Shown here piece after piece: positions 635 through 20,877 of a DNA stretch of 61,267 bases (the stretch's first letter is position 1; every line of letters starts with the position of its first letter). The stretch lies in IMG/VR virus record IMGVR_UViG_3300042896_001037, positions 1 through 61,267 of that record. One strand, 5' to 3'. This DNA comes from a virus. Made by a program: the position numbers and the translations under genes. The notes under the pieces are model-generated. The model had not been told where the DNA came from. It searched no databases and saw nothing but the letters and a program-made list of their open reading frames with translations.

Positions 635-658
635 TTCGTATATTCCATTATAAAAAAG
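635..658 (+). promoter_or_regulatory. Early promoter element, divergent copy
   Basis: TTCGTATATT at 635-644, but with CCATTATAAAAAAGG in place of the usual second half. It lies ten bases upstream of the metallophosphoesterase start and follows a run of eight T. Confidence 0.65.
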
Positions 659-667
659 GAAAAATCA

Positions 668-1378
668 ATGAAAATTACATTAATCTCTGATACACATTCA
701 AAGCATAAGCAATTGGATGGAGATCTACCTGGAGGTGAGATATTAATCCATGCAGGTGATTTCATGAACTCAGGTTATGTTAAAACAGAGGCAACTGAAT
801 TTTTTGATTGGTTTGATGCAATAGACAATTACGATACAAAAATATTAATTGCAGGCAATCATGACCGAATAATGGAAAATGATCCTGAATGGGCTCAAGG
901 CATCTTAACAGGATATAAAACCATTGAATATTTGCAAGATGACGATTTAACACTATACTATGACGGACACAATGGAGATTTTCCGGAAGACAATGTTCAC
1001 ATATATGGTTCACCTTGGCAACCTGCATTCTATAATTGGGCTTTCAATTTACCACGCAATAGTGAAGAAATTAAATCAAAGTGGGATGCTATCCCAACTA
1101 ACACAGATATCTTAATCACACATGGACCTCCATTTGGCTACCAAGATATACCAGGTGGACAGAATATACGAGTTGGATGTGAAATGTTACGTCCTCGAGT
1201 AGATGAACTTAAACCAAAAATTCATGTGTTTGGTCATATACATGGAGCAAATGGATATTACTTTAATGGACATACACATTTTTTCAATGCTTCTGTTTTA
1301 AACGAGCGATACAATTATACAAATAAACCATTTTATTTTGAATGGGATCAAGCAACAAATGAAATAAAATGGCTATAA
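668..1378 (+). CDS. Calcineurin-like metallophosphoesterase (MPPED-like)
   Basis: A two-metal phosphoesterase with all family motifs in order: DTH (D8, H10), GD (D31), GNHD (N64, H65), THGPP (H152) and GHIHG (H190, H192). Its length (236 residues) and the sequence around HGPP and GHIH resemble the MPPED/brain-protein-239 group, some members of which hydrolyse cyclic nucleotides; the substrate here is unknown. No signal peptide, so it should act in the cytoplasm. Transcribed from the early promoter element at 635. Its last ten bases overlap the next gene, suggesting translational coupling. Early expression fits a role in nucleotide turnover or in removing a defence signal, which is inference. 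Confidence 0.9.
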   Translation: MKITLISDTHSKHKQLDGDLPGGEILIHAGDFMNSGYVKTEATEFFDWFDAIDNYDTKILIAGNHDRIMENDPEWAQGILTGYKTIEYLQDDDLTLYYDGHNGDFPEDNVHIYGSPWQPAFYNWAFNLPRNSEEIKSKWDAIPTNTDILITHGPPFGYQDIPGGQNIRVGCEMLRPRVDELKPKIHVFGHIHGANGYYFNGHTHFFNASVLNERYNYTNKPFYFEWDQATNEIKWL

Positions 1379-1740
1379 AAATAAATCAAGATAAAATACC
1401 AGTAACATTAGATACTAGTGATAATCTACACATAGATCAACTAGAAGATTTAGCAGAGCTACTAACCCAAGGTAAACCTAATTGGAAGCTCGTTAGAAAG
1501 AGAGATGGGTTAATCAAACATTCAGTAGATGTAATTTGGATTGAGTTTAATGAAAATGGCACCTTTAAAGCAAAATATGATGAACCAGCTATTGATCGTT
1601 CATTAATTATGTCACCATTTAACCAATTCTTTACTTGGCAAACAACTCCAATAACAGAAATTGTGGAGGAGCAAGATGATTATATTAAATTTAAGACACA
1701 AAATAGTAATTACGAATTGTGGAAACTAAAAAATAATTAA
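1369..1740 (+). CDS. Hypothetical protein, 123 aa
   Basis: Not recognised. A soluble protein with a short leucine/acid-rich helix (residues 22-34, LEDLAELLTQ) followed by alternating hydrophobic and polar strands rich in aromatic residues (WKLVRK, VIWIEF, FFTWQ). The start ATG lies inside the end of the phosphoesterase gene in another frame, so translation is probably coupled. No promoter element lies between the two. Confidence 0.75.
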   Translation: MAIKINQDKIPVTLDTSDNLHIDQLEDLAELLTQGKPNWKLVRKRDGLIKHSVDVIWIEFNENGTFKAKYDEPAIDRSLIMSPFNQFFTWQTTPITEIVEEQDDYIKFKTQNSNYELWKLKNN

Positions 1741-1745
1741 CACAT

Positions 1746-1985
1746 ATGGGAAAAATAATATTAGAGTTTGACTCTTTTGAAGAGCAAGATGATGCAAGAA
1801 TGGCATTAGATGGATATAAATGGAAAGTAGCTATGTGGGACTTAGACCAAGAGCTTCGAAGTGTAACAAAGTATGGCACTTTTGATGGAAGAGAAGCTAC
1901 AGGAGAAGAACAAAACATGGCTGAATCACTAAGAGATTCTATCAGAGAGGTATTAAATAGATCTAATTTAAACTTAGAAGATTAA
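1746..1985 (+). CDS. Conserved phage hypothetical, 79 aa
   Basis: A small acidic protein with the pattern IILEFDSFEEQDDARMAL then WDLDQELR, which I recall from hypothetical proteins of several T4-like and other large phages. No known function. It follows the previous gene by five bases and belongs to the same run of closely spaced genes from 668 to about 3697. Confidence 0.8.
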   Translation: MGKIILEFDSFEEQDDARMALDGYKWKVAMWDLDQELRSVTKYGTFDGREATGEEQNMAESLRDSIREVLNRSNLNLED

Positions 1986-1991
1986 ATAGTT

Positions 1992-2198
1992 ATGAATAAA
2001 TGGTATAATTATGGGAAGTGGAGACATCCTGAAAAACGTAAAGAATTAATAAAAAATATGAATAAAGAACAAGCCAAAGACGAGTTAATCAAAGTATTGT
2101 ACTCTCAAGTAGTAGATCTAACCATGATGTCCAAAATTGAATTGGGAGATGATGTGATAGCAGAAATTAAACGACTAAACGAAATTATCAATGGATAA
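1992..2198 (+). CDS. Hypothetical protein, 68 aa
   Basis: Not recognised. The N terminus is basic and aromatic (KWYNYGKWRHPEKRK), the rest a predicted helix ending KRLNEIING. Six bases separate it from the preceding gene, and the next small gene starts inside its last codons. Confidence 0.7.
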   Translation: MNKWYNYGKWRHPEKRKELIKNMNKEQAKDELIKVLYSQVVDLTMMSKIELGDDVIAEIKRLNEIING

Positions 2199-2265
2199 AA
2201 CAATATATTACTCAATTTTACATTTACTAGCGGGAATTACGTTAGGATATTTAATGTTTTCATAA
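2191..2265 (+). CDS. Small membrane peptide, 24 aa
   Basis: The 24-codon frame starts within the last codons of the preceding gene (8-base overlap). It encodes MDKTIYYSILHLLAGI followed by TLGYLMFS, essentially one membrane helix. Translational coupling is likely; function unknown. Its size makes it uncertain, but similar single-helix peptides occur several times in this region. Confidence 0.45.
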   Translation: MDKTIYYSILHLLAGITLGYLMFS

Positions 2266-2278
2266 AATTTAAAACAAT

Positions 2279-2509
2279 ATGTTTTACGATACTAAAGGAA
2301 GACCACCTGAAAAGAAAATAGTAACAGTAGTTGTTTATAAAAAACCTACTGGAAAAAAATATTACATGCTGACAACAGAAGATGGAATAGATGCTATATT
2401 AAGTCCATCTAAACGTAAACCTCTTTTGCCCGATAATTTTGAAATAATTGATATGGGAATGGGAGAATCGTACATTGAAAAATATAAAAATCTATACAAA
2501 ATAAAATGA
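2279..2509 (+). CDS. Hypothetical protein, 76 aa
   Basis: Not recognised. A compact basic protein with a strand-rich N-terminal half (KKIVTVVVYKK, KKYYMLTTEDG) and a lysine-rich tail. Its stop overlaps the start of the next gene by four bases (ATGA), typical of coupled translation. Confidence 0.7.
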   Translation: MFYDTKGRPPEKKIVTVVVYKKPTGKKYYMLTTEDGIDAILSPSKRKPLLPDNFEIIDMGMGESYIEKYKNLYKIK

Positions 2510-3697: not shown

Positions 3698-3720
3698 GGA
3701 CTAGATTTCTTAAAATATCT

Positions 3721-3744
3721 TTCGTATATTCCCATTAAATAAAA
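3721..3744 (+). promoter_or_regulatory. Early promoter element, divergent copy
   Basis: TTCGTATATT followed by CCCATTAAATAAAAGGG, leading directly into the gene at 3749. The second half lacks the usual GTATAAATA. Confidence 0.6.
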
Positions 3745-3958: not shown

Positions 3959-3983
3959 AGGGAATAAGAGATTTGAAAAGGAA

Positions 3984-4007
3984 TTCGTATATTATAGTAT
4001 AAATTTA
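3984..4007 (+). promoter_or_regulatory. Early promoter element
   Basis: TTCGTATATT, ATA, GTATAAATTTA; 13 bases before the start at 4020. Confidence 0.75.
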
Positions 4008-4193: not shown

Positions 4194-4221
4194 ATGAAGG
4201 AATAAGAGATTAAAAAAAGAT

Positions 4222-4245
4222 TTCGTATATTAAAGTATAAATTAA
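4222..4245 (+). promoter_or_regulatory. Early promoter element
   Basis: TTCGTATATT, AAA, GTATAAATTAA; leads to the RecA-like gene at 4262. Confidence 0.75.
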
Positions 4246-5071: not shown

Positions 5072-5081
5072 TCAAGGAATA

Positions 5082-5097
5082 GGGAGAGCAATCTCCC
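5082..5097 (+). terminator. Terminator hairpin fused to the next promoter
   Basis: GGGAGA-GCAA-TCTCCC, six base pairs closing a GNRA-type loop, followed by TTT that is already the start of the promoter element at 5099. Confidence 0.75.
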
Positions 5098-5098
5098 T

Positions 5099-5122
5099 TT
5101 CGTATATTCAATTAAATAAAAA
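5099..5122 (+). promoter_or_regulatory. Early promoter element, divergent copy
   Basis: TTCGTATATT then CAATTAAATAAAAAA; leads to the DUF932-like gene at 5133. Confidence 0.65.
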
Positions 5123-5876: not shown

Positions 5877-5899
5877 GGAATATTTTATGTAAAAAAGTT

Positions 5900-5923
5900 T
5901 TCGTATATTGAAGTATATAAAAA
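5900..5923 (+). promoter_or_regulatory. Early promoter element
   Basis: TTCGTATATT, GAA, GTATATAAAAA; leads to 5931. Confidence 0.7.
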
Positions 5924-6687: not shown

Positions 6688-6717
6688 GTACAGGAAATTA
6701 GGAGATTTAAAAAAGTT

Positions 6718-6741
6718 TTCGTATATTATAGTATAAGAAAA
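6718..6741 (+). promoter_or_regulatory. Early promoter element
   Basis: TTCGTATATT, ATA, GTATAAGAAAA; the leader to the start at 6779 is longer than usual (about 37 bases). Confidence 0.7.
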
Positions 6742-7814: not shown

Positions 7815-7843
7815 AATAAAGGAATAGTTGAAGCAAAAGAAAT

Positions 7844-7867
7844 TTCGTATATTATAGTATAAAAAGG
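7844..7867 (+). promoter_or_regulatory. Early promoter element
   Basis: TTCGTATATT, ATA, GTATAAAAAGG; leader of about seven bases to the start at 7872. Confidence 0.7.
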
Positions 7868-8564: not shown

Positions 8565-8591
8565 TGAAGGACAAGGATTATTGAAAGAGAA

Positions 8592-8615
8592 TTCGTATAT
8601 TATAGTATAAATAAG
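8592..8615 (+). promoter_or_regulatory. Early promoter element
   Basis: TTCGTATATT, ATA, GTATAAATAAG; leads to 8629. Confidence 0.75.
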
Positions 8616-8628: not shown

Positions 8629-9381
8629 ATGAAAAACACAGAAAATTTTAAAGATCCGAATCAATTGGATTTATTTGCAGGTATTGTATTAACTACCGAA
8701 CAACAAAGTCAAGTTGATCGATATATTGATAACGTAAACAAAAGTGCTAATTTTCAAAGAAATAAAGTACAACAACTTGAACAGTTACTTGTTGAAGCAG
8801 GTTTTAAAAAGGGAATTGATTTTGAAAACACATTCAAATCATCTTTAGAAACAAGTACTGTTGGAATTGGATGGGGAAATAATCAGTTTGAAACAGAGGT
8901 TACAGCTGAATTTCATTCAGGTGATGTTGTGTTGAAGGGTTTAAGGTTTTCAAATAATGAATTAATAAAGGCTACATTTAATATTAATATTGATAAAGAT
9001 AAAGTTCAATGCTATACAGTTCAAGGTCAATCTCGTTATATTAAACCTAAAACATTACTTGAAAAACTTAATCAATACAATGAATGTCAAAAAGATGCGT
9101 TAAAGGATTTTCAAAATAAAACAAATTTAAAACAAATTGTAGTTGAAAAATATACAAAACTATATCCAAATGCTATAGTAACAGTTAAAAGTGATTGGAC
9201 AAAATATAGCGGCTCGTTTGAAGTTATTGAAGTTAAATTTGAATCAGGTAGTTATGTTCAATTTAGATTAGACACATACAATAATAAAGAATATATGTTC
9301 AGAAACCACGATGCTGAATTTGTAAAATTAAATTCAGAGGAATTGTTAAATAGATTTTCAAAACAGGAAGCTCTCAATTAA
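8629..9381 (+). CDS. Hypothetical protein with sliding-clamp-binding motif, 250 aa
   Basis: No domain recognised. Residues 12-16 are QLDLF, a perfect match to the bacterial beta-clamp-binding pentapeptide QL(S/D)LF, placed near a flexible N terminus (MKNTENFKDPN) as such motifs usually are. The rest is a helical stretch (25-55) followed by two strand-rich segments with similar flavour (VGIGWGNNQFETEVTAEF and YSGSFEVIEVKF), perhaps a repeat. If the motif is real the protein is brought to the host or phage clamp at forks. Single gene, ending in a terminator hairpin. Confidence 0.75.
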   Translation: MKNTENFKDPNQLDLFAGIVLTTEQQSQVDRYIDNVNKSANFQRNKVQQLEQLLVEAGFKKGIDFENTFKSSLETSTVGIGWGNNQFETEVTAEFHSGDVVLKGLRFSNNELIKATFNINIDKDKVQCYTVQGQSRYIKPKTLLEKLNQYNECQKDALKDFQNKTNLKQIVVEKYTKLYPNAIVTVKSDWTKYSGSFEVIEVKFESGSYVQFRLDTYNNKEYMFRNHDAEFVKLNSEELLNRFSKQEALN

Positions 9382-9389
9382 GAGAGCTT
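9368..9389 (+). terminator. Terminator hairpin fused to promoter, stop codon in loop
   Basis: AAGCTCTC-AATTAA-GAGAGCTT, eight base pairs; the TAA of the upstream gene (9379-9381) is in the loop. Its T run is the start of the promoter element. Confidence 0.8.
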
Positions 9390-9412
9390 TCGTATATTGT
9401 AGTATAAATAAA
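9389..9412 (+). promoter_or_regulatory. Early promoter element
   Basis: TTCGTATATT, GTA, GTATAAATAAA; leads to 9423. Confidence 0.75.
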
Positions 9413-9621: not shown

Positions 9622-9795
9622 ATGACAGAATTCGAAGAAAACAATCAAGAACAATTAAAAGCATTTTTAAAAAAGTTAAATGAATTAGTAGATGAATTCC
9701 ACCCAAACATTTATTTGTTAAATGGTGTATTTAAAGGAGTTCAAACCATTGAAATTGCTATTTTAAATGAATTAAATAAGGACAAAGAAATTTAA
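9622..9795 (+). CDS. Hypothetical protein, 57 aa
   Basis: MTEFEENNQEQLKAFLKKLN followed by ELVDEFHPNIYLLNG and a second helix. Helical and acidic; no family recognised. Follows 9423 by four bases. Confidence 0.55.
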   Translation: MTEFEENNQEQLKAFLKKLNELVDEFHPNIYLLNGVFKGVQTIEIAILNELNKDKEI

Positions 9796-9802
9796 AAAAG
9801 CT

Positions 9803-9827
9803 TTCGTATATTAATCGTATAAAAAGA
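9803..9827 (+). promoter_or_regulatory. Early promoter element, 4-base spacer
   Basis: TTCGTATATT, AATC, GTATAAAAAGA; leads to 9837. Confidence 0.7.
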
Positions 9828-9836: not shown

Positions 9837-10739
9837 ATGAAAAAAAAGAATTTATTTCAAGCAGTAAAAACGTTTATCAATGACACACCAAGAGGTGAAA
9901 CATTTACAACAAAAGAATTAATTGCAAGTGTAGGTAATCAAGAAGATTCAACACAGTGGAAAAGATGGAATAATAATCCAAATTATAGAACACACACATA
10001 CAAGGCCTATTTGAAACGAACCGGATTTTTATCTAATCCAAAATATGGTGTATGGGAAGTTAAAAAACACATACCTGATTTTATTAATTTAGGTACAATT
10101 GAGTTTTTAATTGGATATAAAACTTATAGTAATAGATACAATGGTTTAACTGAACAGCAAATAAAAAATAGTATAGAGGAATTCAATGTTGTAATGGAAA
10201 AAGGTTATCTTACAGAAATGTACCCTGACATAAAGAATCTAAATAGAGAATGTGAATGTAATTGTGGAGAAGGAAATAGTTGTATTGATGGAGAAACAAC
10301 ACAACAATTACTAGAGAGTATTGGAATGGAAGATCAAATGCTACGTCAATTGATTATGTCTCAGCCAATAGATGAAATAAAATATTTAATTGAGGAACGA
10401 GAAAATTTAGAAAAAGTTCGTATATTAGATGAAATAAAAAAAGAAAAAGTTATGAAATTTGATTTTGAAAAAGGTAAACAGGAATTAATAGAATATTTTG
10501 AAATGGAATATTCACAAGCAGAATTTTATTCATTGGATCATATTAGGGGATGTAATAATATAGATGATGTTGAAAGTGAAGTAAAATCATTTAAAGATTT
10601 TAAGGAAGTACATTTTAGATTAATAGGAAAAATCGATCGTGCCTCAACACTATCACTAGTATTTGAAGCGCTAACTGATACTATTTTAGAGGATGACGAT
10701 GAAAGAATTTTATCATTTTTTATTGAAGGACTACAATGA
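9837..10739 (+). CDS. Hypothetical protein with promoter element translated in frame, 300 aa
   Basis: The N-terminal part (1-90) looks like a small winged-helix or HTH module (ETFTTKELIASVG, YRTHTYKAYLKRTGFLSNP), followed by a Cys-rich patch (ECECNCGEGNSC, about 138-149). Residues 193-204 (KVRILDEIKKEK) are the translation of an early promoter element and its A-rich leader, and residue 206 is the ATG that would normally start a separate gene. The frame thus appears to be two genes joined when the first lost its stop; the downstream part can still be made alone. A natural fusion, or internal start, has to be settled by protein data. Confidence 0.7.
   Translation: MKKKNLFQAVKTFINDTPRGETFTTKELIASVGNQEDSTQWKRWNNNPNYRTHTYKAYLKRTGFLSNPKYGVWEVKKHIPDFINLGTIEFLIGYKTYSNRYNGLTEQQIKNSIEEFNVVMEKGYLTEMYPDIKNLNRECECNCGEGNSCIDGETTQQLLESIGMEDQMLRQLIMSQPIDEIKYLIEERENLEKVRILDEIKKEKVMKFDFEKGKQELIEYFEMEYSQAEFYSLDHIRGCNNIDDVESEVKSFKDFKEVHFRLIGKIDRASTLSLVFEALTDTILEDDDERILSFFIEGLQ
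10417..10440 (+). promoter_or_regulatory. Early promoter element inside a reading frame
   Basis: TTCGTATATT, AGATGAAATAAAAAAAG; the second half is diverged (GATGAAATAAA for GTATAAATAAA), yet the downstream leader AAAAAGTTATG is intact. It lies within the 300-codon frame 9837-10739. Confidence 0.6.
10452..10739 (+). CDS. Internal gene, 95 aa, from in-frame promoter
   Basis: Starts at the internal ATG that follows the translated promoter element, with the standard AAAAAGTTATG leader. Product begins MKFDFEKGKQELIEYF and is acidic and helical; no family recognised. It shares frame and stop with the 300-residue product. Its existence as a separate protein is inferred from the promoter and leader. 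Confidence 0.55.
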   Translation: MKFDFEKGKQELIEYFEMEYSQAEFYSLDHIRGCNNIDDVESEVKSFKDFKEVHFRLIGKIDRASTLSLVFEALTDTILEDDDERILSFFIEGLQ

Positions 10740-10848: not shown

Positions 10849-11271
10849 ATGGGAAGTGTATTAGATTATATTGAATGCCCGAATTGTAAATTAGAGGCAA
10901 TGGATGACTTTTATTACAAAACGGGAGAAGAGTATGTAAACTGCGGTAACTGTGGATACCATTACTCAGCAACAATTAAAAATAGAGAAAAAAGATTGGA
11001 TCTATTAACTGATAAAGATTGGAAAATTACTGAATTGAAAAAACCATACGGGTCATATAGAATAAAATCATATGATGGAGTTGGGTATTTAGGAGGTTCG
11101 TTATCAAATAAAAAACAATTTATTGAATTGAAAACGAATTGCGAAAACGATACAAATATAGAGACTTTAACAGTTAGTCGTTTTTTAAATGGAAAAATTA
11201 AATTTGAAACAGTAATTGATAATGGGCCTAAAGTGGATGGAGCTGGATTTACAGTTGAAGATAGGGAATAG
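10849..11271 (+). CDS. Zinc-ribbon protein, 140 aa
   Basis: Two cysteine knuckles, CPNC (10-13) and CGNC (32-35), with GY after the second, make a classical zinc ribbon of the kind found in nucleic-acid-binding proteins. The rest (about 40-140) is strand-rich and unrecognised. Last gene of the transcript starting at 9803 or 10417. Confidence 0.75.
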   Translation: MGSVLDYIECPNCKLEAMDDFYYKTGEEYVNCGNCGYHYSATIKNREKRLDLLTDKDWKITELKKPYGSYRIKSYDGVGYLGGSLSNKKQFIELKTNCENDTNIETLTVSRFLNGKIKFETVIDNGPKVDGAGFTVEDRE

Positions 11272-11287
11272 AAAATATAAAAGAAAT

Positions 11288-11311
11288 TTCGTATATTATA
11301 GTATAAATAAA
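11288..11311 (+). promoter_or_regulatory. Early promoter element
   Basis: TTCGTATATT, ATA, GTATAAATAAA, a perfect consensus copy; leads to 11322. Confidence 0.8.
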
Positions 11312-11564: not shown

Positions 11565-11681
11565 ATGACAGAAAAAGAATTAAGAGAAGCATGGGAAAAA
11601 TATCAATCCACAGCACATCCGGAAGATATGATGTCGTATGTTGAATTTTTAAGTGAACAGGGAATTGAATTAGAAGATTAA
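11565..11681 (+). CDS. Small acidic hypothetical, 38 aa
   Basis: MTEKELREAWEKYQ followed by HPEDMMSYVEFLSEQGIELED. Helical and acidic. Six bases after the upstream stop; its own stop touches the next promoter element. Confidence 0.5.
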   Translation: MTEKELREAWEKYQSTAHPEDMMSYVEFLSEQGIELED

Positions 11682-11683
11682 TT

Positions 11684-11707
11684 TTCGTATATTACAGTAT
11701 AAATAAA
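11684..11707 (+). promoter_or_regulatory. Early promoter element
   Basis: TTCGTATATT, ACA, GTATAAATAAA; leads to 11720. Confidence 0.8.
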
Positions 11708-12137: not shown

Positions 12138-12374
12138 ATGGATGAAGCAGTTAAATTATTATGGAAAGGTAAAATGCACCCGGAAATATACAACTCAAAT
12201 ATTCCTTGGGAACAAAAACAATTTCTACAAAATCAACTTGAATATAAACATAATGGAGACTTTGTAGCATTGTTAAATGATATGCTAGAATACTCATTAC
12301 TACCAGATGTAGAAGATTACGAAAATGCAGTGGAAATTAGAGATTATATTAAAGAAATAAAGGAAGAGCTTTAA
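12138..12374 (+). CDS. Small UVR-motif-like protein, paralog B
   Basis: Second copy of the 5931 family: MHPEIYNSNIPWEQKQFLQNQ parallels MNLHPVIQESRLPQETKEFI, and both end in a UVR-like hairpin (DYENAVEIRDYIKEIKEEL here). The N-terminal extension of about twelve residues (MDEAVKLLWKGK) is unique to this copy. Its stop lies in the loop of the following terminator. Confidence 0.7.
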   Translation: MDEAVKLLWKGKMHPEIYNSNIPWEQKQFLQNQLEYKHNGDFVALLNDMLEYSLLPDVEDYENAVEIRDYIKEIKEEL

Positions 12375-12384
12375 CAGAAGCTCT
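12365..12384 (+). terminator. Terminator hairpin fused to promoter, stop codon in loop
   Basis: AGAGCTT/AAGCTCT stem of seven pairs (eight with A12364-T12385); the TAA of the upstream gene (12372-12374) is in the loop. TTT leads into the promoter element. Confidence 0.75.
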
Positions 12385-12408
12385 TTCGTATATTATAGTA
12401 TAAATAAA
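12385..12408 (+). promoter_or_regulatory. Early promoter element
   Basis: TTCGTATATT, ATA, GTATAAATAAA; leads to 12421. Confidence 0.8.
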
Positions 12409-12420: not shown

Positions 12421-12621
12421 ATGAAAGTATTTAGAATTACTACAAAAGTAAAAGCAACAAAAACTATTCAATATGTTGTTGAAGCGAACTCAAAGGAAGA
12501 AGCAGAATTAAAAATAATTGAAGGAGAAGAACGTGGTGAAGGTGATGAAGTGGATGAGGTAATTGAATGGGGGACAGAAATACTTACTAAAACTAAATTT
12601 ATAGAAGAATTAGAGGACTAA
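12421..12621 (+). CDS. Hypothetical protein, 66 aa
   Basis: Not recognised. A strand (KVFRITTKVKATKTIQYVVE) followed by an acidic helix; resembles many tiny alpha/beta phage proteins with a VEANSKEEAELKI turn. Single gene. Confidence 0.65.
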   Translation: MKVFRITTKVKATKTIQYVVEANSKEEAELKIIEGEERGEGDEVDEVIEWGTEILTKTKFIEELED

Positions 12622-12637
12622 AAGTATTAAAATAGAA

Positions 12638-12661
12638 TTCGTATATTATAGTATAAATAAA
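12638..12661 (+). promoter_or_regulatory. Early promoter element
   Basis: TTCGTATATT, ATA, GTATAAATAAA; leader to 12666 is unusually short (about five bases). Confidence 0.75.
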
Positions 12662-12911: not shown

Positions 12912-13057
12912 AACAAGGCGACAAAGTAAAATGCCTATCATACTCAGGTGTTTGGACGTTGGTGTGGTATAAAGAAGGCGACACAACGTGTGCTATTCAA
13001 AATGAAACCCGACGCTACATTGTTAAGACATCTACTTTAACCTTAATAAAGGAATAA
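12908..13057 (+). CDS. Small SH3-like hypothetical, 49 aa
   Basis: MKQGDKVKCLSYSGVWTLVW then YKEGDTTCAIQ and RRYIVKTSTLTLIKE. The GDKVKC start and alternating strands suggest a tiny SH3/KOW-type barrel. Starts within the upstream stop. Confidence 0.55.
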   Translation: MKQGDKVKCLSYSGVWTLVWYKEGDTTCAIQNETRRYIVKTSTLTLIKE

Positions 13058-13073
13058 GAGATGTAAAATAGAA

Positions 13074-13097
13074 TTCGTATATTATAGTATAAATAAA
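13074..13097 (+). promoter_or_regulatory. Early promoter element
   Basis: TTCGTATATT, ATA, GTATAAATAAA; leads to 13109. Confidence 0.8.
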
Positions 13098-13417: not shown

Positions 13418-13441
13418 AGGAATAAAATAAGTAAAATAGAA

Positions 13442-13465
13442 TTCGTATATTATATTATAAATAAA
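13442..13465 (+). promoter_or_regulatory. Early promoter element
   Basis: TTCGTATATT, ATA, TTATAAATAAA (one change from consensus); leads to 13480. Confidence 0.75.
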
Positions 13466-13818: not shown

Positions 13819-13827
13819 TAAAGGACG

Positions 13828-13845
13828 AAGGAGCATAAGCTCCTT
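13828..13845 (+). terminator. Terminator hairpin fused to promoter
   Basis: AAGGAGC-ATAA-GCTCCTT, seven base pairs, followed by TTTTCG of the next promoter element. Confidence 0.8.
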
Positions 13846-13869
13846 TTCGTATATTATAGTATAAATAAA
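13846..13869 (+). promoter_or_regulatory. Early promoter element
   Basis: TTCGTATATT, ATA, GTATAAATAAA; leads to 13888. Confidence 0.8.
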
Positions 13870-13887: not shown

Positions 13888-14166
13888 ATGAAATTAGAAT
13901 TTGTAAAAGAAAAAGAATTAGAATTAATTAATAATAGATTTGCTGAAGAAGATTCAATTGATTATGATTATTGGGATTTGATGAGTGATGAAGAGATATT
14001 AATTACTGATGCTGCTATGTTTGTTGATGAAGCATACTGTGAAAATGAATTTAATTCGTTAGAGGAATTTGCTAAAAATGCTTCTGAAGGTGAAGGAGAT
14101 ACTATAGAGAATACTATTAAAAGATTAAATGAAATGTTAATTAAAGGAATATTAAAATTAAAATAA
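13888..14166 (+). CDS. Acidic hypothetical protein, 92 aa
   Basis: Not recognised. Helical and very acidic (FAEEDSIDYDYWDLMSDEEI, YCENEFNSLEEFAK). Single gene; its stop is almost directly followed by the next promoter element. Confidence 0.65.
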   Translation: MKLEFVKEKELELINNRFAEEDSIDYDYWDLMSDEEILITDAAMFVDEAYCENEFNSLEEFAKNASEGEGDTIENTIKRLNEMLIKGILKLK

Positions 14167-14168
14167 GA

Positions 14169-14192
14169 TTCGTATATTACAGTATAAATAAA
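14169..14192 (+). promoter_or_regulatory. Early promoter element
   Basis: TTCGTATATT, ACA, GTATAAATAAA; begins three bases after the upstream stop codon and leads to 14205. Confidence 0.8.
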
Positions 14193-14555: not shown

Positions 14556-14571
14556 TTAAAATAAATAAAGG

Positions 14572-14593
14572 AAGCCCTTAATCAAAAGGGCTT
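14572..14593 (+). terminator. Terminator hairpin fused to promoter
   Basis: AAGCCCTT-AATCAA-AAGGGCTT, eight base pairs, running into TTCG of the promoter element. Confidence 0.8.
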
Positions 14594-14616
14594 TCGTATA
14601 TTACAGTATAAATAAA
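14593..14616 (+). promoter_or_regulatory. Early promoter element
   Basis: TTCGTATATT, ACA, GTATAAATAAA; leads to 14643. Confidence 0.8.
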
Positions 14617-14846: not shown

Positions 14847-14926
14847 GTAATGAAGAGGCATTGTTTATACTTGAACAAATGGAAGAGCTAGATTTTGGAG
14901 CTAGGGACATAGGTTATCCAATTTGA
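14843..14926 (+). CDS. Very small acidic peptide, 27 aa
   Basis: MSNEEALFILEQMEELDFGA followed by RDIGYPI. ATGA overlap with the upstream gene, and its TGA directly precedes the next promoter element. Unknown. Confidence 0.45.
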   Translation: MSNEEALFILEQMEELDFGARDIGYPI

Positions 14927-14927
14927 T

Positions 14928-14952
14928 TTCGTATATTAATTGTATAAAAAAT
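14928..14952 (+). promoter_or_regulatory. Early promoter element, 4-base spacer
   Basis: TTCGTATATT, AATT, GTATAAAAAAT; starts two bases after a stop codon and leads to 14960. Confidence 0.7.
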
Positions 14953-14959: not shown

Positions 14960-15076
14960 ATGGAAGATCTACAAACCTATTTAAAGGAACTTGTTAATGA
15001 AAGCATTATACACAATGATGTAAAGGACGAGATATTGTTTTTGGTAAAAAAGCTAATCAAGGAAATAGAAGCGTAA
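14960..15076 (+). CDS. Small helical hypothetical, 38 aa
   Basis: MEDLQTYLKELVNESI then NDVKDEILFLVKKLIKEIEA; one or two amphipathic helices. Its stop codon lies in the loop of the terminator that follows. The last five codons and the terminator are repeated almost exactly at the end of the next gene. Confidence 0.55.
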   Translation: MEDLQTYLKELVNESIIHNDVKDEILFLVKKLIKEIEA

Positions 15077-15082
15077 GCTTCT
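15067..15082 (+). terminator. Terminator hairpin fused to promoter, stop codon in GNRA loop
   Basis: AGAAGC-GTAA-GCTTCT; the loop GTAA holds the TAA stop of the upstream gene. TT and then TTCG follow. Confidence 0.8.
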
Positions 15083-15083
15083 T

Positions 15084-15107
15084 TTCGTATATTGTGGTAT
15101 AAATAAA
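15084..15107 (+). promoter_or_regulatory. Early promoter element
   Basis: TTCGTATATT, GTG, GTATAAATAAA; leads to 15118. Confidence 0.8.
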
Positions 15108-15117: not shown

Positions 15118-15327
15118 ATGAAATTTGAAATTGGTAATAAAGTTAAAATAATAGGATTTCCAAAAATGAAATGTACTATTTATGATTGTTGGATAAATAA
15201 ATTGGAAAATTTAAGAATGGAAGGTAATGAAATTACTTATGCTGTTGAACATGACAATTATAGAGGGAAAATGGTTATGATTTATACAGTTAAAGAAAGT
15301 GAATTAATTAAGGACATAGAAGCGTAA
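15118..15327 (+). CDS. SH3/KOW-like hypothetical, 69 aa
   Basis: MKFEIGNKVKIIGFPKMKC then strands up to MIYTVKESELIKDIEA. The start (IGNKVKIIG) is typical of small SH3-like barrels. Ends in the same DIEA-stop-in-hairpin arrangement as the gene before it. Confidence 0.65.
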   Translation: MKFEIGNKVKIIGFPKMKCTIYDCWINKLENLRMEGNEITYAVEHDNYRGKMVMIYTVKESELIKDIEA

Positions 15328-15333
15328 GCTTCT
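15318..15333 (+). terminator. Terminator hairpin fused to promoter, stop codon in GNRA loop
   Basis: Same AGAAGC-GTAA-GCTTCT hairpin as 15067-15082, with the upstream TAA (15325-15327) in the loop; a recent duplication of the whole junction. Confidence 0.8.
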
Positions 15334-15334
15334 T

Positions 15335-15358
15335 TTCGTATATTACAGTATAAATAAA
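15335..15358 (+). promoter_or_regulatory. Early promoter element
   Basis: TTCGTATATT, ACA, GTATAAATAAA; leads to 15369. Confidence 0.8.
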
Positions 15359-15681: not shown

Positions 15682-15894
15682 ATGAGAACAATTAAAGTAA
15701 CAACATTAAGTGACAAAAAATCTATCTATATAAACATAGATATGATAGGACATTTATATGAGGTAGAAGAAAAAGATTTTAATCGTGAGCCAAAAAAATA
15801 CACCGTAATAGGAACCACAACACATAACAATGGTGGATTTAAAGTAATTGAAAGTATACAGGAAGTATTTAATAGAATAAAAGCAGAGGAATAA
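15682..15894 (+). CDS. Hypothetical protein, 70 aa
   Basis: MRTIKVTTLSDKKSIYINID then a beta-rich middle (YTVIGTTTHNNGGFKVIES) and helix EVFNRIKAEE. Resembles short phage proteins with the phrase IxVxxxxGxxxVxES, function unknown. The leader AAAAAGTTATG is present but no promoter element precedes it. Confidence 0.65.
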   Translation: MRTIKVTTLSDKKSIYINIDMIGHLYEVEEKDFNREPKKYTVIGTTTHNNGGFKVIESIQEVFNRIKAEE

Positions 15895-15910
15895 GTTATT
15901 TAAAATAAAT

Positions 15911-15934
15911 TTCGTATATTGTGGTATAAATAAA
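15911..15934 (+). promoter_or_regulatory. Early promoter element
   Basis: TTCGTATATT, GTG, GTATAAATAAA; leads to 15942. Confidence 0.8.
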
Positions 15935-16493: not shown

Positions 16494-16574
16494 AGCAACG
16501 GATAATTGATTAACTAAACGTGTATAAAACGAAGATTATCAACAAACATAGGGACTATTAAAACCAAGGAGATT

Positions 16575-16598
16575 ATCGTATATTAACGTAAATAAAGA
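16575..16598 (+). promoter_or_regulatory. Variant early promoter element
   Basis: ATCGTATATT, AAC, GTAAATAAAG: the first T of the core is changed and TA is lost from the second half. Leads to the 40-codon frame at 16608. Confidence 0.5.
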
Positions 16599-16870: not shown

Positions 16871-16894
16871 AAAATTAGGATACCTGGGATAGAT

Positions 16895-17145
16895 TTCGTA
16901 TCTTACCATATGTATTAATGAGTACGATGGTATCTCCCGCAATGGAAATAGAAACGGGCAACGCAACAGTTTTAGGACACAGAAAGGCGCCACTTAGTAA
17001 ACAAAAACGGTAGAAACATCAGTATTCGTGTGTGAATGAGTATGTAAGGTGATCATTGAAAACTTCACACCGCGATTATAGCCAAACGTGGCGCTTGGAT
17101 TATAAAGTAAAAAGCTTGCACAAGAGATGTAGGCTATCGTTCTGT
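16895..17145 (+). ncRNA. Structured noncoding RNA with crossing helices
   Basis: No plausible reading frame. It begins at a variant promoter element (TTCGTATCTT at 16895). Helices visible: TACCAT 16904-16909 with ATGGTA 16927-16932; CCCG 16936-16939 with CGGG 16955-16958; GCGCCAC 16987-16993 with GTGGCGC 17088-17094; GTGTGAA 17030-17036 with TTCACAC 17064-17070; ATAGCC 17078-17083 with GGCTAT 17132-17137. The last crosses the third, giving a pseudoknot. The GC-rich helices stand out in this AT-rich DNA. No tmRNA, RNase P or riboswitch signature recognised. Position beside the phased repeats suggests an origin transcript or regulatory RNA. Confidence 0.55.
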
Positions 17146-17172
17146 TTAAGGACTAAGTTTAGTAAATGAGAT

Positions 17173-17196
17173 TTCGTATATTTCAGTATAAATAAA
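17173..17196 (+). promoter_or_regulatory. Early promoter element
   Basis: TTCGTATATT, TCA, GTATAAATAAA; leads to 17204. Confidence 0.8.
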
Positions 17197-17203: not shown

Positions 17204-17383
17204 ATGAAAAAAGTTGTAATTATATTAAAAAATCGTTTAACAGGATTAAACGAAGAATTGTTTTTATTAGAGAATAAAACAATAGTAAATCAAGAAACAT
17301 TTAAAAACATCTGTGAACAGAATTATTTTATAAATTCTGATGTAATGGCATGTTTTCATAAAAGTTGTTTTGGGAATAAGTAA
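17204..17383 (+). CDS. Hypothetical protein, 59 aa
   Basis: MKKVVIILKNRLTGLNEELF then NYFINSDVMACFHKSCFGNK. Hydrophobic start, three Cys in the last third; unknown. Own promoter. Confidence 0.55.
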   Translation: MKKVVIILKNRLTGLNEELFLLENKTIVNQETFKNICEQNYFINSDVMACFHKSCFGNK

Positions 17384-17395
17384 ATCAAATTATAA

Positions 17396-17419
17396 TTCGT
17401 ATATTGAGGTATAATTAAA
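17396..17419 (+). promoter_or_regulatory. Early promoter element
   Basis: TTCGTATATT, GAG, GTATAATTAAA; the TATAATTAAA variant is shared with 18240 and 18475. Confidence 0.75.
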
Positions 17420-17632: not shown

Positions 17633-17655
17633 GGAATAAGTAAAACAAAATATAA

Positions 17656-17679
17656 TTCGTATATTACAGTATAAATAAA
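17656..17679 (+). promoter_or_regulatory. Early promoter element
   Basis: TTCGTATATT, ACA, GTATAAATAAA; leader of about 35 bases to 17715. Confidence 0.8.
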
Positions 17680-17714: not shown

Positions 17715-18044
17715 ATGAAAAGTGAAGTTAAAAGTGTAAAATTAGGACGTCCTGTAAATGAAAACAGTGTAAGACAATTAAGGATTAAAGAGTTAGAGTT
17801 AAAACGTAGTAACGGAGAGTTAAAGTTAGGACGTCCTGTTAATGAAAACAGTGTAAGACAATTAAGGATTAGTGAGTTAGAGAGTAAAAGAGTAAACGGA
17901 GAGTTGAAATTAGGACGTCCTGTAAATGAAAACAGTGTAAGACAATTAAGGATTAAAGAGTTAAATGAAAAAAGAGAGTTAGGTTTAGTTAAAAGAGGAC
18001 GACCTAAAATGATTAAGAGTGTAACTGATGAAATAGCTGCTTAG
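17715..18044 (+). CDS. GRP-repeat (AT-hook-like) DNA-binding protein, 109 aa
   Basis: Three consecutive 28-residue repeats, each KLGRPVNENSVRQLRI then a charged helix (ELELKRSNGEL and variants), followed by a final KRGRPKMIKS. GRP with flanking basic residues is the AT-hook core that enters the minor groove of AT-rich DNA; the last copy, KRGRPK, is the most classical. The repeats are also near-identical at DNA level (84 bp each, from 17739), so they expanded recently or are kept alike by conversion. A role as nucleoid-like or silencing protein on AT-rich phage or host DNA is inference. Followed by a terminator-promoter junction. Confidence 0.75.
   Translation: MKSEVKSVKLGRPVNENSVRQLRIKELELKRSNGELKLGRPVNENSVRQLRISELESKRVNGELKLGRPVNENSVRQLRIKELNEKRELGLVKRGRPKMIKSVTDEIAA
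17739..17990 (+). repeat. Three 84-bp tandem repeats within a gene
   Basis: Units 17739-17822, 17823-17906 and 17907-17990 encode the GRP repeats; each contains GGACGTCCTGT and the stretch GTGTAAGACAATTAAGGATT. No spacer variation, so not a CRISPR array. Confidence 0.85.
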
Positions 18045-18071
18045 GAATAAGCAGTTAATAAATAATAATGG

Positions 18072-18093
18072 AAGCAGCTAATTAAAGCTGCTT
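18072..18093 (+). terminator. Terminator hairpin fused to promoter
   Basis: AAGCAGCT-AATTAA-AGCTGCTT, eight base pairs, running into TTCG of the promoter element. Confidence 0.8.
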
Positions 18094-18116
18094 TCGTATA
18101 TTATAGCATAAATAAA
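18093..18116 (+). promoter_or_regulatory. Early promoter element
   Basis: TTCGTATATT, ATA, GCATAAATAAA (one change); leads to 18148. Confidence 0.75.
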
Positions 18117-18147: not shown

Positions 18148-18258
18148 ATGACAAAAGTAATTTTCGTGACTTGGAGTGTGATGTTGAGTTCAGCATTAAT
18201 GTATGGTGTGATTATGGGAATAGTAAATTTGATATTTAGTTCGTATATTGATGTATAA
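18148..18258 (+). CDS. Small membrane peptide ending inside a promoter, 36 aa
   Basis: MTKVIFVTWSVMLSSALMYG then VIMGIVNLIFSSYIDV. One long membrane helix. The last six codons (SSYIDV, stop) are the translation of the promoter element at 18240, whose GTATAA supplies the TAA stop. Start ATG follows a long A-rich leader. Confidence 0.55.
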   Translation: MTKVIFVTWSVMLSSALMYGVIMGIVNLIFSSYIDV

Positions 18259-18263
18259 TTAAA
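18240..18263 (+). promoter_or_regulatory. Early promoter element overlapping a gene end
   Basis: TTCGTATATT, GAT, GTATAATTAAA; the first half codes for the C terminus of the upstream peptide. Leads to 18276. Confidence 0.75.
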
Positions 18264-18275: not shown

Positions 18276-18464
18276 ATGAAAAGAGTTAACATTAAAGAAA
18301 CAGATAATAGAGATTCAAGTGAAACAGATTTAATATTAGATAACGGAACTGTAGTAAGTATTGATGTACAAGATTTGTTTGAGAATATGTTAGAGAATTT
18401 AGGTGATGATGATTTATTAGATAAATTTTATGAGTTACAAAAATTAATTGAGGACAGAGAGTAA
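18276..18464 (+). CDS. Acidic hypothetical protein, 62 aa
   Basis: Not recognised. MKRVNIKETDNRDSSETDLI then an acidic helix region (LFENMLENLGDDDLLDKFYE). Single gene. Confidence 0.6.
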   Translation: MKRVNIKETDNRDSSETDLILDNGTVVSIDVQDLFENMLENLGDDDLLDKFYELQKLIEDRE

Positions 18465-18474
18465 CAAAATATGA

Positions 18475-18498
18475 TTCGTATATTGATGTATAATTAAA
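18475..18498 (+). promoter_or_regulatory. Early promoter element
   Basis: TTCGTATATT, GAT, GTATAATTAAA; identical core to 18240. Leads to the cluster of overlapping peptides from 18511. Confidence 0.75.
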
Positions 18499-18510
18499 AA
18501 ATAAAAGAAA

Positions 18511-18582: not shown

Positions 18583-18659
18583 TAGGTATAGGAGTTTGTA
18601 TTGGTTTAACAATGTTGTTAATAGGATTTAAATTAATTTTAATGAGTTTATTTTCATGA
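18579..18659 (+). CDS. Membrane peptide 2 of cluster, 26 aa
   Basis: MIGIGVCIGLTMLLIGFKLI then LMSLFS. Begins MIG like peptide 1, so possibly a diverged duplicate. ATGA overlaps on both sides. Confidence 0.5.
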   Translation: MIGIGVCIGLTMLLIGFKLILMSLFS

Positions 18660-18745
18660 TGGTGGTAACGGGGATTTTGGTTAGCATGGTATTAGTGTTA
18701 ATAACTGTATTGATTTTGGATATTTTAACTGATTTATTTTTATGA
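18656..18745 (+). CDS. Membrane peptide 3 of cluster, 29 aa
   Basis: MMVVTGILVSMVLVLITVLI then LDILTDLFL; a single hydrophobic helix with an acidic end. ATGA overlaps on both sides. Confidence 0.5.
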   Translation: MMVVTGILVSMVLVLITVLILDILTDLFL

Positions 18746-18867
18746 GAAAGAAAGAAATGGATGAAATGATGATGTTGTTGTTTTTGGTTAAACAAGAATT
18801 GGCTTGTGAGATTGTGTACGCACCTCACTACCTGAAATTTGAACACTCGATTATATGGGCTAATTAA
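18742..18867 (+). CDS. Peptide 4 of cluster, 41 aa
   Basis: MRKKEMDEMMMLLFLVKQEL then ACEIVYAPHYLKFEHSIIWA. Partly hydrophobic, with basic start; the only member with a soluble C-terminal part. Starts in the stop of peptide 3. Confidence 0.5.
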   Translation: MRKKEMDEMMMLLFLVKQELACEIVYAPHYLKFEHSIIWAN

Positions 18868-18890
18868 GGACATAGAAATCATAGATCAGG

Positions 18891-18914
18891 TTCGTATATT
18901 GTGGTATAAATAAG
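18891..18914 (+). promoter_or_regulatory. Early promoter element
   Basis: TTCGTATATT, GTG, GTATAAATAAG; leads to 18940. Confidence 0.75.
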
Positions 18915-18939
18915 AAATAATAATTAAATTTAAAAAGAT

Positions 18940-19011
18940 ATGTACGCAGCATTAATGACAATTTTAACAGTAGGTCTCATTATGGGATTTATTCACATTA
19001 TTAATAAATAA
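18940..19011 (+). CDS. Small membrane peptide, 23 aa
   Basis: MYAALMTILTVGLIMGFIHI then INK; a single membrane helix with its own promoter and leader AAAAAGATATG. Precedes 19020 on the same transcript. Confidence 0.5.
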   Translation: MYAALMTILTVGLIMGFIHIINK

Positions 19012-19019
19012 AAAAAAAT

Positions 19020-19325
19020 ATGACAGCGGTAGAATATGGATTGGCATATATTGGATTTGAGGGTTTTGGTAAGATCAAGGATATTGATTTTGCGGATGAA
19101 TTATGGAATGAGGAGATCAGTGATGGACTTACCATTCGAGGGATCGATTTTGAGGATGATCTGGTTTACTTAGGTACATTGGTAGAATATCCATGTGGTG
19201 GGGAGTGTTGTGGTTCATATTGGGAGGTTGATGAGTATAATTTAGACCAATTAGCCAGTAAAGGCCACTTAGGCAAATTAATTGGTATGATGGATGATAT
19301 ATTAACGGCTAAAACGGGAATATAA
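19020..19325 (+). CDS. Acidic hypothetical protein, 101 aa
   Basis: Not recognised. Acidic, with a cysteine cluster CGGECC (about 60-65) followed by GSYWEVDEYN. The cysteines could hold a metal, but no known motif fits. Confidence 0.65.
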   Translation: MTAVEYGLAYIGFEGFGKIKDIDFADELWNEEISDGLTIRGIDFEDDLVYLGTLVEYPCGGECCGSYWEVDEYNLDQLASKGHLGKLIGMMDDILTAKTGI

Positions 19326-19339
19326 TTATTAAGATCTGA

Positions 19340-19363
19340 TTCGTATATTGTGGTATAAATAAA
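19340..19363 (+). promoter_or_regulatory. Early promoter element
   Basis: TTCGTATATT, GTG, GTATAAATAAA; last copy of the dense early series. Confidence 0.8.
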
Positions 19364-19376
19364 AATGATAAAAGAT

Positions 19377-19616
19377 ATGATGAAAAAGGTAGACATGATT
19401 AAAACGATTCAATCCACAGAAGCAAGAGCTTGGTTAGCATTAAAAAAATCTCAAGTAAATAATGGTAAAGAAAGCCAAATAACTAAAGAGTATAGAGAAC
19501 GATGGATGACGCTTAAGTGCTTAATGTCGGCTTTAGATATAGAATCAGATGTTGAGTTGGTAGAATCAAAAGAAGCGCTTCAAATTATATTAGATAACTT
19601 TGAACTCGCTTTTTAA
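19377..19616 (+). CDS. Hypothetical protein, paralog of 12666, 79 aa
   Basis: MMKKVDMIKTIQSTEARAWL matches the start of the gene at 12666 and the C-terminal helix also lines up. I chose the ATG at 19377 because the preceding GATAAAAGAT is the usual leader; an in-frame ATG at 19365 lies too close to the promoter element. Confidence 0.65.
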   Translation: MMKKVDMIKTIQSTEARAWLALKKSQVNNGKESQITKEYRERWMTLKCLMSALDIESDVELVESKEALQIILDNFELAF

Positions 19617-19698
19617 AGTACAATAGACCCTAGTATAAGGGTGGCGGGCGGTACGGCGTATGGCGGTATATATATGGGCGTAATATGGTCGTATGGCC

Positions 19699-19729
19699 CC
19701 ACGCGCGCCGGTGTCAATATGGCGCGTGG
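19699..19729 (+). other. GC-rich hairpin
   Basis: CCACGCGC (19699-19706) pairs with GCGCGTGG (19722-19729), eight GC-rich base pairs with a 15-base loop. No T run follows, so not a classical terminator; could be an RNA structure, a protein site or a replication barrier. Confidence 0.65.
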
Positions 19730-19757
19730 TGTGGTGGTCCGCGAATTATATGACTTA

Positions 19758-19788
19758 ACTCATCGACTACAACTCTTCACTCATCGAC
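19758..19788 (+). repeat. 10-bp direct repeat, two helical turns apart
   Basis: ACTCATCGAC at 19758-19767 and 19779-19788, 21 bp from start to start. Typical spacing for a dimeric regulator or initiator site. Confidence 0.6.
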
Positions 19789-19884
19789 ATTGTATATCCT
19801 TATATATTAAAATAAAATATCCCCACAATGTATCCCAAATTTTAAAACCCATAAAAAATGTAAAACCCCAAAAATCCCAAATCT

Positions 19885-19900
19885 TTTTTTTTAAAAAAAA
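19885..19900. repeat. T8A8 palindrome
   Basis: TTTTTTTTAAAAAAAA, a perfect 16-bp palindrome upstream of the first middle/late gene. It can act as a bidirectional weak terminator or a stiff DNA element. Confidence 0.5.
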
Positions 19901-19952
19901 TGCGTGTTTACAATAGGATATATATGTATATTAAACGAATAAACTAATTACT

Positions 19953-20069
19953 ATGATATATAGAATAATCAAATTACCATTTTACCTCGCCTTAGGTTAC
20001 TTTGGGATCCTTTTTTGTGGAGGAATGGAAATTATTAATTTATTTTCATGGACTTTTAAAAAATTATAG
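19953..20069 (+). CDS. Small membrane protein, 38 aa
   Basis: MIYRIIKLPFYLALGYFGIL then FCGGMEIINLFSWTFKKL: a basic start, one membrane helix, basic end. One of the few genes here ending in TAG. First gene after the noncoding island. Confidence 0.55.
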   Translation: MIYRIIKLPFYLALGYFGILFCGGMEIINLFSWTFKKL

Positions 20070-20080
20070 TATTTATAAAC
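20067..20080 (+). promoter_or_regulatory. Late-type TATTTATAA motif
   Basis: TAGTATTTATAAAC, twelve bases before the start at 20092. Same class as the motifs at 24387, 27407 and 30013. Confidence 0.45.
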
Positions 20081-20091
20081 AAATAAAAATT

Positions 20092-20328
20092 ATGAGCGAC
20101 ATTAGACAAGAAATGGATCAAGTGATCAATGAATTAAAAAACAAAGGAATCCACGAAACTACTAACCCCAATGAAATTACAGGTTTAGGAGATGTTCTTG
20201 AATCAACTTTAACTAAATTTGGTATTACCCAAGAACGATATAAAAGTTGGTTTGGGTTAGAAGAATGTGGTTGCACCGAAAGAAAGAAATGGCTTAACGG
20301 TTTATTCAGTTGGCACACTAAAAAATAA
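20092..20328 (+). CDS. Conserved phage hypothetical with CGC-ERK-W motif, 78 aa
   Basis: Contains TGLGDVLESTLTKFGITQER and then LEECGCTERKKWLNGLF, a C-terminal pattern (CGCxERKxxLN) that I recall from small conserved proteins of marine T4-like phages; function unknown. Helical, with two close Cys. The ATG at 20092 with leader AAATTATG is preferred over an upstream in-frame GTG. Confidence 0.7.
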   Translation: MSDIRQEMDQVINELKNKGIHETTNPNEITGLGDVLESTLTKFGITQERYKSWFGLEECGCTERKKWLNGLFSWHTKK

Positions 20329-20333
20329 ATAAA

Positions 20334-20444
20334 ATGGAAAAAGAAACATGCCCTAAGGGTACAAAATGTCTTTGTGGATTATCCCAAGACCCTAATGGAA
20401 ATTGTGATGGTTCCCACGTAGCAACTTCTCAAGATACCAAATAA
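20334..20444 (+). CDS. CDGSH-type iron-sulfur mini-protein, 36 aa
   Basis: MEKETCPKGTKCLCGLSQDP then NGNCDGSHVATSQDTK. Residues CLCGLSQDPNGNCDGSH carry C-x-C and the exact CDGSH end of the [2Fe-2S] CDGSH finger; the spacing between second and third Cys is nine instead of eight. The usual fold is a homodimer of longer chains, so a 36-residue version would be minimal. A redox or iron-sensing role is inference. The stop is immediately followed by the next ATG. Confidence 0.6.
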   Translation: MEKETCPKGTKCLCGLSQDPNGNCDGSHVATSQDTK

Positions 20445-20825
20445 ATGGCATCTTACACATACACCGAACTATACGGATCAGGATCAATTGGAGAAACTCT
20501 TGTTGGATATACTAGATTTGAATTTAATAACCCAAGTGGTTCCTCATATTTTACTTTAGAAACCATACCTACCTCTACTGGTTTTTATGAAGCTAGTTCA
20601 CCTAAAAATTTTATTGGGACCTATACAAATGATATACATCCTTATATGGATCCAACAAATCCATCCTCTATAAATCCTTGGGGATTAGTTACTTCCTCAT
20701 ATATAGCTAGTGTAGTTGTTCCACCAGGACTAAGCTCTTTTGATTTTGACCCAACAGTGGTCCCTATTTTAGGTACTACCTATCGTTTAAGAGGAACAGG
20801 AGCATATTCTCTTTCCATTTCTTAA
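20445..20825 (+). CDS. Hypothetical, structural-like, 126 aa
   Basis: Ser/Thr/Tyr/Pro-rich and beta-rich (TELYGSGSIGETLVGYTRFE, NNPSGSSYFTLETIP), like the phage surface and tail proteins further downstream, and unlike the Lys/Glu-rich early proteins. No family recognised. Starts in the base after the CDGSH gene stop. Confidence 0.6.
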   Translation: MASYTYTELYGSGSIGETLVGYTRFEFNNPSGSSYFTLETIPTSTGFYEASSPKNFIGTYTNDIHPYMDPTNPSSINPWGLVTSSYIASVVVPPGLSSFDFDPTVVPILGTTYRLRGTGAYSLSIS

Positions 20826-20852
20826 ATAAATCCTAGGCTTTTTTATCTTTTA

Positions 20853-20877
20853 TTCGTATATTAATTGTATAAATAAT
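20853..20877 (+). promoter_or_regulatory. Early promoter element, 4-base spacer
   Basis: TTCGTATATT, AATT, GTATAAATAAT; an isolated copy beyond the noncoding island, leading to 20892. Confidence 0.7.

Follow-up and report, generated by a model that had tools for sequence, protein, structure and literature searches.

Promoters with a phage-specific upstream box and a resemblance to T4 middle promoters in phages related to Flavobacterium phage immuto

In the middle promoters of phage T4, which depend on sigma appropriation, the MotA box takes the place of the −35 element, and the −10 element is retained (PMC2988021). The −7 element of Flavobacterium johnsoniae is TAHHTTTG, with the bases T-12, A-11, T-8, T-7, T-6 and G-5, and transcription starts 4-5 bases downstream (PMC6847099). 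Here we analyze an element with the core TTCGTATATT that is repeated upstream of small genes in the IMG/VR phage record IMGVR_UViG_3300042896_001037 (hereinafter, the window), a sequence of 61,267 bases that is classed as linear and is probably a fragment. The respective phage infects Bacteroidota, with flavobacteria as the probable hosts. The repeated element represents a genuine family of promoters with a phage-specific box; among the described systems, the family is most like the T4 middle promoters, to which it does not belong by box sequence or spacing. In the literature library that was searched, neither a promoter of this kind nor any middle-type class of promoters in Bacteroidota phages is described.

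The core and its two upstream boxes

The window contains 35 exact copies of TTCGTATATT, all on the plus strand, 34 of them within 635-20853 and one at 54894, as well as two one-mismatch variants in the same region, ATCGTATATT at 16575 and TTCGTATCTT at 16895. The count given in a preliminary description of this DNA is thus borne out and is far above chance. The two-part structure proposed in that description is real as well, with a second half that is looser than described: there are 15 exact matches to TTCGTATATT followed, after 2-6 bases, by GTATAAATAAA (0.00 expected in shuffles), and 23 matches when only GTATAAA is required behind the core. The GTATAAA form has no match on the other strand and none in the reversed control. 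For most sites, the distance to the ATG is 25-60 bases.

When the 37 copies are aligned on TTCG, from which all offsets are counted, they fall into two classes, and no copy lacks an upstream box. In class B, GGA[AC] starts at exactly −23 (32 of the 37 sites), that is, a phage-specific box stands at a fixed distance instead of the host −35 element; in class A, which comprises the remaining 5 sites, YTWGG, i.e., (T/C)T(T/A)GG, is located at exactly −20. The column counts show GG at −23/−22 in 32 of the 37 aligned copies and A at −21 in 35; the background frequencies per position in the window are 0.75% for GGA[AC] and 0.36% for YTWGG. Another feature of class B is a TAAAA patch at positions −10 to −6. 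The fixed spacing holds beyond the window: across 13 class B genomes, AGGA[AC] with GGA at offset 23 precedes 229 exact and 60 one-mismatch cores, compared to at most 4 cores with GGA at offsets 20-22 or 24-26. The preliminary description is accordingly incorrect in stating that a fixed −33 element cannot be seen and in assuming a single promoter type.

All class B promoters lie on the plus strand: 3698..3744 (core at 3721, with GGAC at −23), 3961..4007 (core 3984), 4199..4245 (4222), 5877..5923 (5900), 7821..7867 (7844), 8569..8615 (8592), 9780..9826 (9803), 10394..10440 (10417), 11265..11311 (11288), 12615..12661 (12638), 13051..13097 (13074), 13419..13465 (13442), 14146..14192 (14169), 14905..14951 (14928), 15888..15934 (15911), 17150..17196 (17173), 17373..17419 (17396), 18217..18263 (18240), 18452..18498 (18475), 18868..18914 (18891) and 19317..19363 (19340), together with 17633..17679 (17656), which heads a gene for a protein with GRP repeats, 16552..16598, which has the variant core at 16575, and 11661..11707 (11684), a hybrid copy, GGAATTGA, that also carries TTG at −19. 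The remaining eight have a hairpin in the spacer and are found at 5076..5122 (5099), 9366..9412 (9389, 8-bp stem), 12362..12408 (12385), 13823..13869 (13846), 14570..14616 (14593), 15061..15107 (15084), 15312..15358 (15335) and 18070..18116 (18093, 8-bp stem). The class A promoters, on the same strand, are 615..658 (TTTGG, core 635), 6698..6741 (TTAGG, core 6718), which precedes a DUF932 gene, 20833..20876 (CTAGG, core 20853) and 54874..54917 (core 54894), where the box, TTTGGG, lies within a hairpin. The site at 16875..16918 (TTAGG, core 16895) is a probable class A promoter and the least certain in the set, with a variant core, no GTATAAA and no clear gene behind it.

With a stem of at least 6 bp including at least 3 GC pairs required between GGA and TTCG, 62 of 392 class B sites contain a hairpin, compared to 0.7 in shuffles, and so do 7 of 162 class A sites. 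The nine hairpin-containing copies reported earlier for the window are all present (the eight class B sites and 54894); the hairpins do not, however, take the place of the upstream element, as had been thought, but are accommodated in the spacer that separates GGA from TTCG, leaving the 23-base spacing unchanged. Most plausibly, they are terminators that belong to the preceding gene and are packed into the spacer.

The element can be aligned with the host promoter. In the F. johnsoniae frame, TTCG occupies −16 to −13 and TATATT −12 to −7, the class A TTTGG falls at −36 to −32 and the class B GGAAT at −39 to −35, and the predicted transcription start lies inside GTATAAATAAA, in agreement with the earlier expectation. 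Of the sigma-ABfr promoter (TTTG/TANNTTTG; PMC6847099), class A has the host −33 TTTG, fully or nearly so (5 window sites), at a matching spacing to TATATT; the phage copies differ in the addition of the conserved TTCG before TATATT and often lack T-6 and G-5, and TTTG is entirely absent from class B (32 sites). In class B core variants, TATATT is hardly changed (the first, second and last bases never are), and the C of TTCG is altered in 34 of 70 variant copies, 30 times to T; in class A phages, the freest core position is the G of TTCG. Because TATATT is nearly invariant in both classes while the C and G of TTCG vary, the core fits the −10 element of a primary sigma factor rather than the CGTA of extracytoplasmic function (ECF) sigma factors. 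The earlier notion that TTCG is essential has to be relaxed, given the 60 one-mismatch cores, among which TTCG to TTTG is the commonest change: TTCG is only strongly preferred. In the pooled class B set, C falls to approximately zero from +16 on, in an A-rich stretch, which is suggestive of the beginning of the expected leader.

Relatives and exchange of the upstream boxes

Relatives of the window were gathered by a pattern scan of IMG/VR for loci with the element. The consensus sequences of these loci show the same two classes, with AAGGAATA at −23 or TTTGG/GTTG at −20, and both classes are present in tens of uncultured contigs, mostly of T4-like phages related to Flavobacterium phage vB_FspM_immuto (MW353175), the cultured relative of the window group, with which the terminase shares 57% identity. 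Core genes in common with the window, including those for a sigma-like protein and baseplate proteins, are found in 22 of the 28 compared genomes; a few records (G042, G044, G046 and G050) carry the element and share little else with the window. Record-wide counts, for which the reversed controls yielded 0 to 2 matches, vary considerably among the relatives: 20 class B and 7 class A sites in G001, 34 and 3 in G006, 29-30 and 3-4 in G036, 6 and 21 in G026, 0 and 19 in G023, and 0 and 15 in immuto. By the same counts, G027 and G053, like G023 and immuto, have class A sites and no pure class B sites. Immuto resembles the window in possessing a block of small genes under TTC.TATATTTAGG promoters and differs in that these are exclusively of class A (GTTGC/TTG box), the GGA box being absent. 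Genes for 7-deazaguanine synthesis and a DpdA-like DNA transglycosylase are also present in immuto (L128:18607-37015), with homologues in several class B phages, so modified DNA is possible in these phages.

A megablast search of the window block against cultured phages produced no match, and the consensus element yielded only weak matches among cultured phages, immuto included; the class B phages appear to be uncultured. The full class B pattern, with the downstream GTATAA required, has one single match in 84,980 genomes of bacteria and archaea (257 Gb), probably a chance occurrence, and because of this near absence, the full class B element can be considered phage-specific in that form.

The two boxes replace each other in front of orthologous genes. 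Sixteen gene families have class A promoters in some phages and class B promoters in at least two others, with the core unchanged; among these are the families of the window genes 8629-9381 (class B in 10 phages, class A in 3) and 4262-5071 (class B in 12, class A in 3), as well as those of 3749-3958 and 11720-12136. For the DUF932 gene at 6779, the promoter is of class A in most relatives. Two DUF932-type paralogues are located near each other in the window, at 5133-5876 and 6779-7591. Hybrid copies with both boxes were identified as well, eight in the first 14 genomes, mostly GGAATTGG. Since the same gene families can carry either box and hybrids exist, the boxes are alternatives on one promoter design.

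Candidate readers and competing explanations

Our preferred interpretation, which we advance with moderate confidence, is that the element is a middle-type bipartite promoter in which the host RNA polymerase still contacts the −10 element and recognition of the −35 region is taken over by a factor that the phage encodes. Both classes would share the extended −10 core TTCG-TATATT (−16 to −7), and transcription would begin within the GTATAAATAAA behind it. The unmodified sigma-ABfr polymerase would use class A, which has TTTGG (−36 to −32) as a −33 box of the host type, early in infection. In class B, with GGA(A/C)TA at about −39 to −34 instead of the −33 box and the TAAAA patch in the spacer, a phage protein made after infection would read GGAAT and hold the host polymerase, and the host sigma would still read TATATT; class B would then belong to the middle or delayed-early promoters and operate in the manner of T4 sigma appropriation, using different components. 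The similarity to T4 middle promoters consists in the phage-specific box in place of the −35 element, a −10 element that is probably retained and the presence of host-type early promoters alongside; the difference is that GGA(A/C)TA lies more than 20 bp upstream of TATATT, as opposed to TGCTTTA at 12 bp (PMC2988021), and no MotA box (TGCTTtA, 12 bp from the −10 element) is recognizable in class B. Of the extended −10-type phage promoter proposed in the preliminary description, a part stands: the element is very probably a promoter, its copies cluster in front of small early-type genes, and phage factors are probably involved; what had been missed is the upstream box.

Several observations weigh against this interpretation. 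The host T at −6 is present in 1 of 31 window class B sites, making the core a non-standard host −7 element, compared to 10 of 10 sites in G035 and 11 of 11 in G030, and it is also present in immuto; the TTCG extension may compensate for its loss. Searches of 17 records with MotA and AsiA profiles were empty, but the positive control did not respond, so absence is not implied. The GGAAT-binding protein is so far a postulate, and the timing of the classes during infection is deduced from the layout of the genes. Furthermore, GGAA(T/C) is similar to the −35 box of ECF promoters, and two class B phages encode ECF-type sigma factors.

The most tangible candidate for the class B reader is the GRP/AT-hook protein (109 amino acids in the window, gene 17715..18044 on the plus strand), a lead that comes from co-occurrence. 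Members of this family consist of 104-153 amino acids with repeated GRPVNxNSxRQxRL...KRxNGEL units and an AT-hook-like KRGRPK at the end; the window gene (17715-18044) encodes tandem GRPVNENSVRQLRIKELE repeats, and some relatives have two copies. The protein is encoded in 10 of 10 near-complete genomes with at least 6 class B sites, in 9 of 10 class B fragments (G022 being the exception) and in 0 of 6 class A-only genomes; G041 lacks it and has a few class B sites. When the association is examined on the tree, there are three independent contrasts, two of which are concordant and one without a difference in GRP, which does not amount to significance. In the predicted structure, GRP linkers connect separate helices, and the N-terminus of some members consists of two helices; a fold search with this model returned nothing significant, and no homologue was found in cultured phages.

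The resemblance of GGAAY to the ECF −35 consensus, together with the CGTA letters in the core, raises the alternative that class B is an ECF-type promoter (GGAAC ... CGTA) served by an ECF sigma factor of the host or of some phages. This is unlikely, even though ECF-type sigma factors that share 37% identity are encoded within or beside the class B clusters of G038 (88358-88951) and G030 (17473-18054), and sigma-W-like or similar ECF-type factors are also encoded by crAss-like phages. Sigma region 4 was detected in only 1 of 17 records (G038), with the controls responding, and not in the other 16, which include the window, G001, G036 and G003; an ECF-type sigma was found only in G038 and, as a homologue, in G030, and not in those four, and a hidden Markov model built from the two ECF-type proteins retrieved no further clear homologue. 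Moreover, the C of CGTA, which an ECF factor would require, is the most frequently changed base next to a nearly invariant TATATT, the class B spacing is longer than is usual for ECF promoters, and class A, with its host −33 box, has the identical core. Somewhat more doubtful still is the explanation that a phage sigma factor, either the gp55-like protein encoded at 23567..24379 (plus strand) or an unrecognized one, reads the whole of TTCGTATATT, the box difference reflecting its −35 domain or a co-factor. Compatible with this are the presence of the sigma-like protein in all 22 genomes of the tree, its weak match to late-sigma families (T4 gp55-type), a structure search in which sigma factors dominate the matches, none of them significant, and the absence from the window core of T-6 and G-5, which belong to the host consensus. 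No match was obtained when solved structures were searched by sequence with the alignment of the sigma-like proteins; the immuto homologue (78174-78872) is annotated as hypothetical. This protein is, however, common to class A-only and class B phages alike, and as the sole explanation of the two classes it was rejected, given that its likely recognition helix is nearly identical in class A-only G027 and in class B phages (KTPKITKIANKLYAIF against KTPKITKIANSLYDIF); its genomic surroundings, like the separate late motif, suggest a connection with late genes, and the host polymerase would in any case be needed first for the early genes.

An accessory activator site for a host-encoded regulator, which the provisional status of the phage candidates for the reading of GGAAT leaves some room for, is quite improbable in view of the virtual absence of the full element from the 257 Gb of prokaryote sequence, although that search required GTATAA and a host GGAAT box with another core is possible. 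A signal for processing or translation in the RNA leader, as opposed to a promoter, is extremely improbable: the A-rich, C-free stretch from about +16 and the excess of spacer hairpins over shuffles speak in its favor, but the fixed −35-like and −10-like spacing, the exchange with the host −33 box and the invariance of the −10 element are promoter features, and the hairpins occur in a minority of the sites and fit as terminators of upstream genes. In favor of the preferred interpretation, no homologue of the beta subunit of RNA polymerase was identified in 12 phage records, with a good positive control.

Layout, timing and implications

A single block of small genes contains all of class B. 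A third motif, HATATTTATW, is found mostly in structural blocks, 8-45 bases before gene starts (24 of 28 copies in G001), and in the window occurs at 24387, 27407, 30013, 37647, 46209, 49772, 52390 and 56773, 13-38 bases before late or structural genes; it is also present in G036 and immuto. As in T4, with its late promoters (TATAAATA, gp55), a gp55-like sigma is combined with a separate late motif; here, however, TATAAATA is found in the small-gene block, behind the core and where transcription is expected to start, and the late genes carry HATATTTATW instead, so TATAAATA, whose resemblance to the T4 late box was noted in the preliminary description, does not represent such a box. The sigma-like gene at 23567 ends the gene run headed by the class A site at 20853, and its product probably is a late factor. 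From this layout, a three-class scheme, with A early, B middle and then late, appears plausible. GC skew is strongly positive (0.32-0.40) across the class B block (10001-20000) and about 0.1 after 20 kb. Upstream of this block, 2724-3443 encodes a glycosyl hydrolase family 16 domain (Pfam, E = 1.4e-16).

Tentatively, the preferred interpretation of a middle-type promoter can be extended to a separate switch of Bacteroidota phages, in which a protein family without known relatives, with the GRP/AT-hook protein as the candidate, would bind GGAAT and redirect the sigma-ABfr polymerase, such that genes could pass between host-read and phage-read control by the exchange of one box. The A/B exchange before orthologous genes would then be a natural experiment in which phages move genes from host-read to phage-read promoters. 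The primary sigma factor of Bacteroidota differs from sigma-70, and if the proposed mechanism is correct, the replacement of −35 reading would have evolved outside the T4/E. coli system, with different parts.

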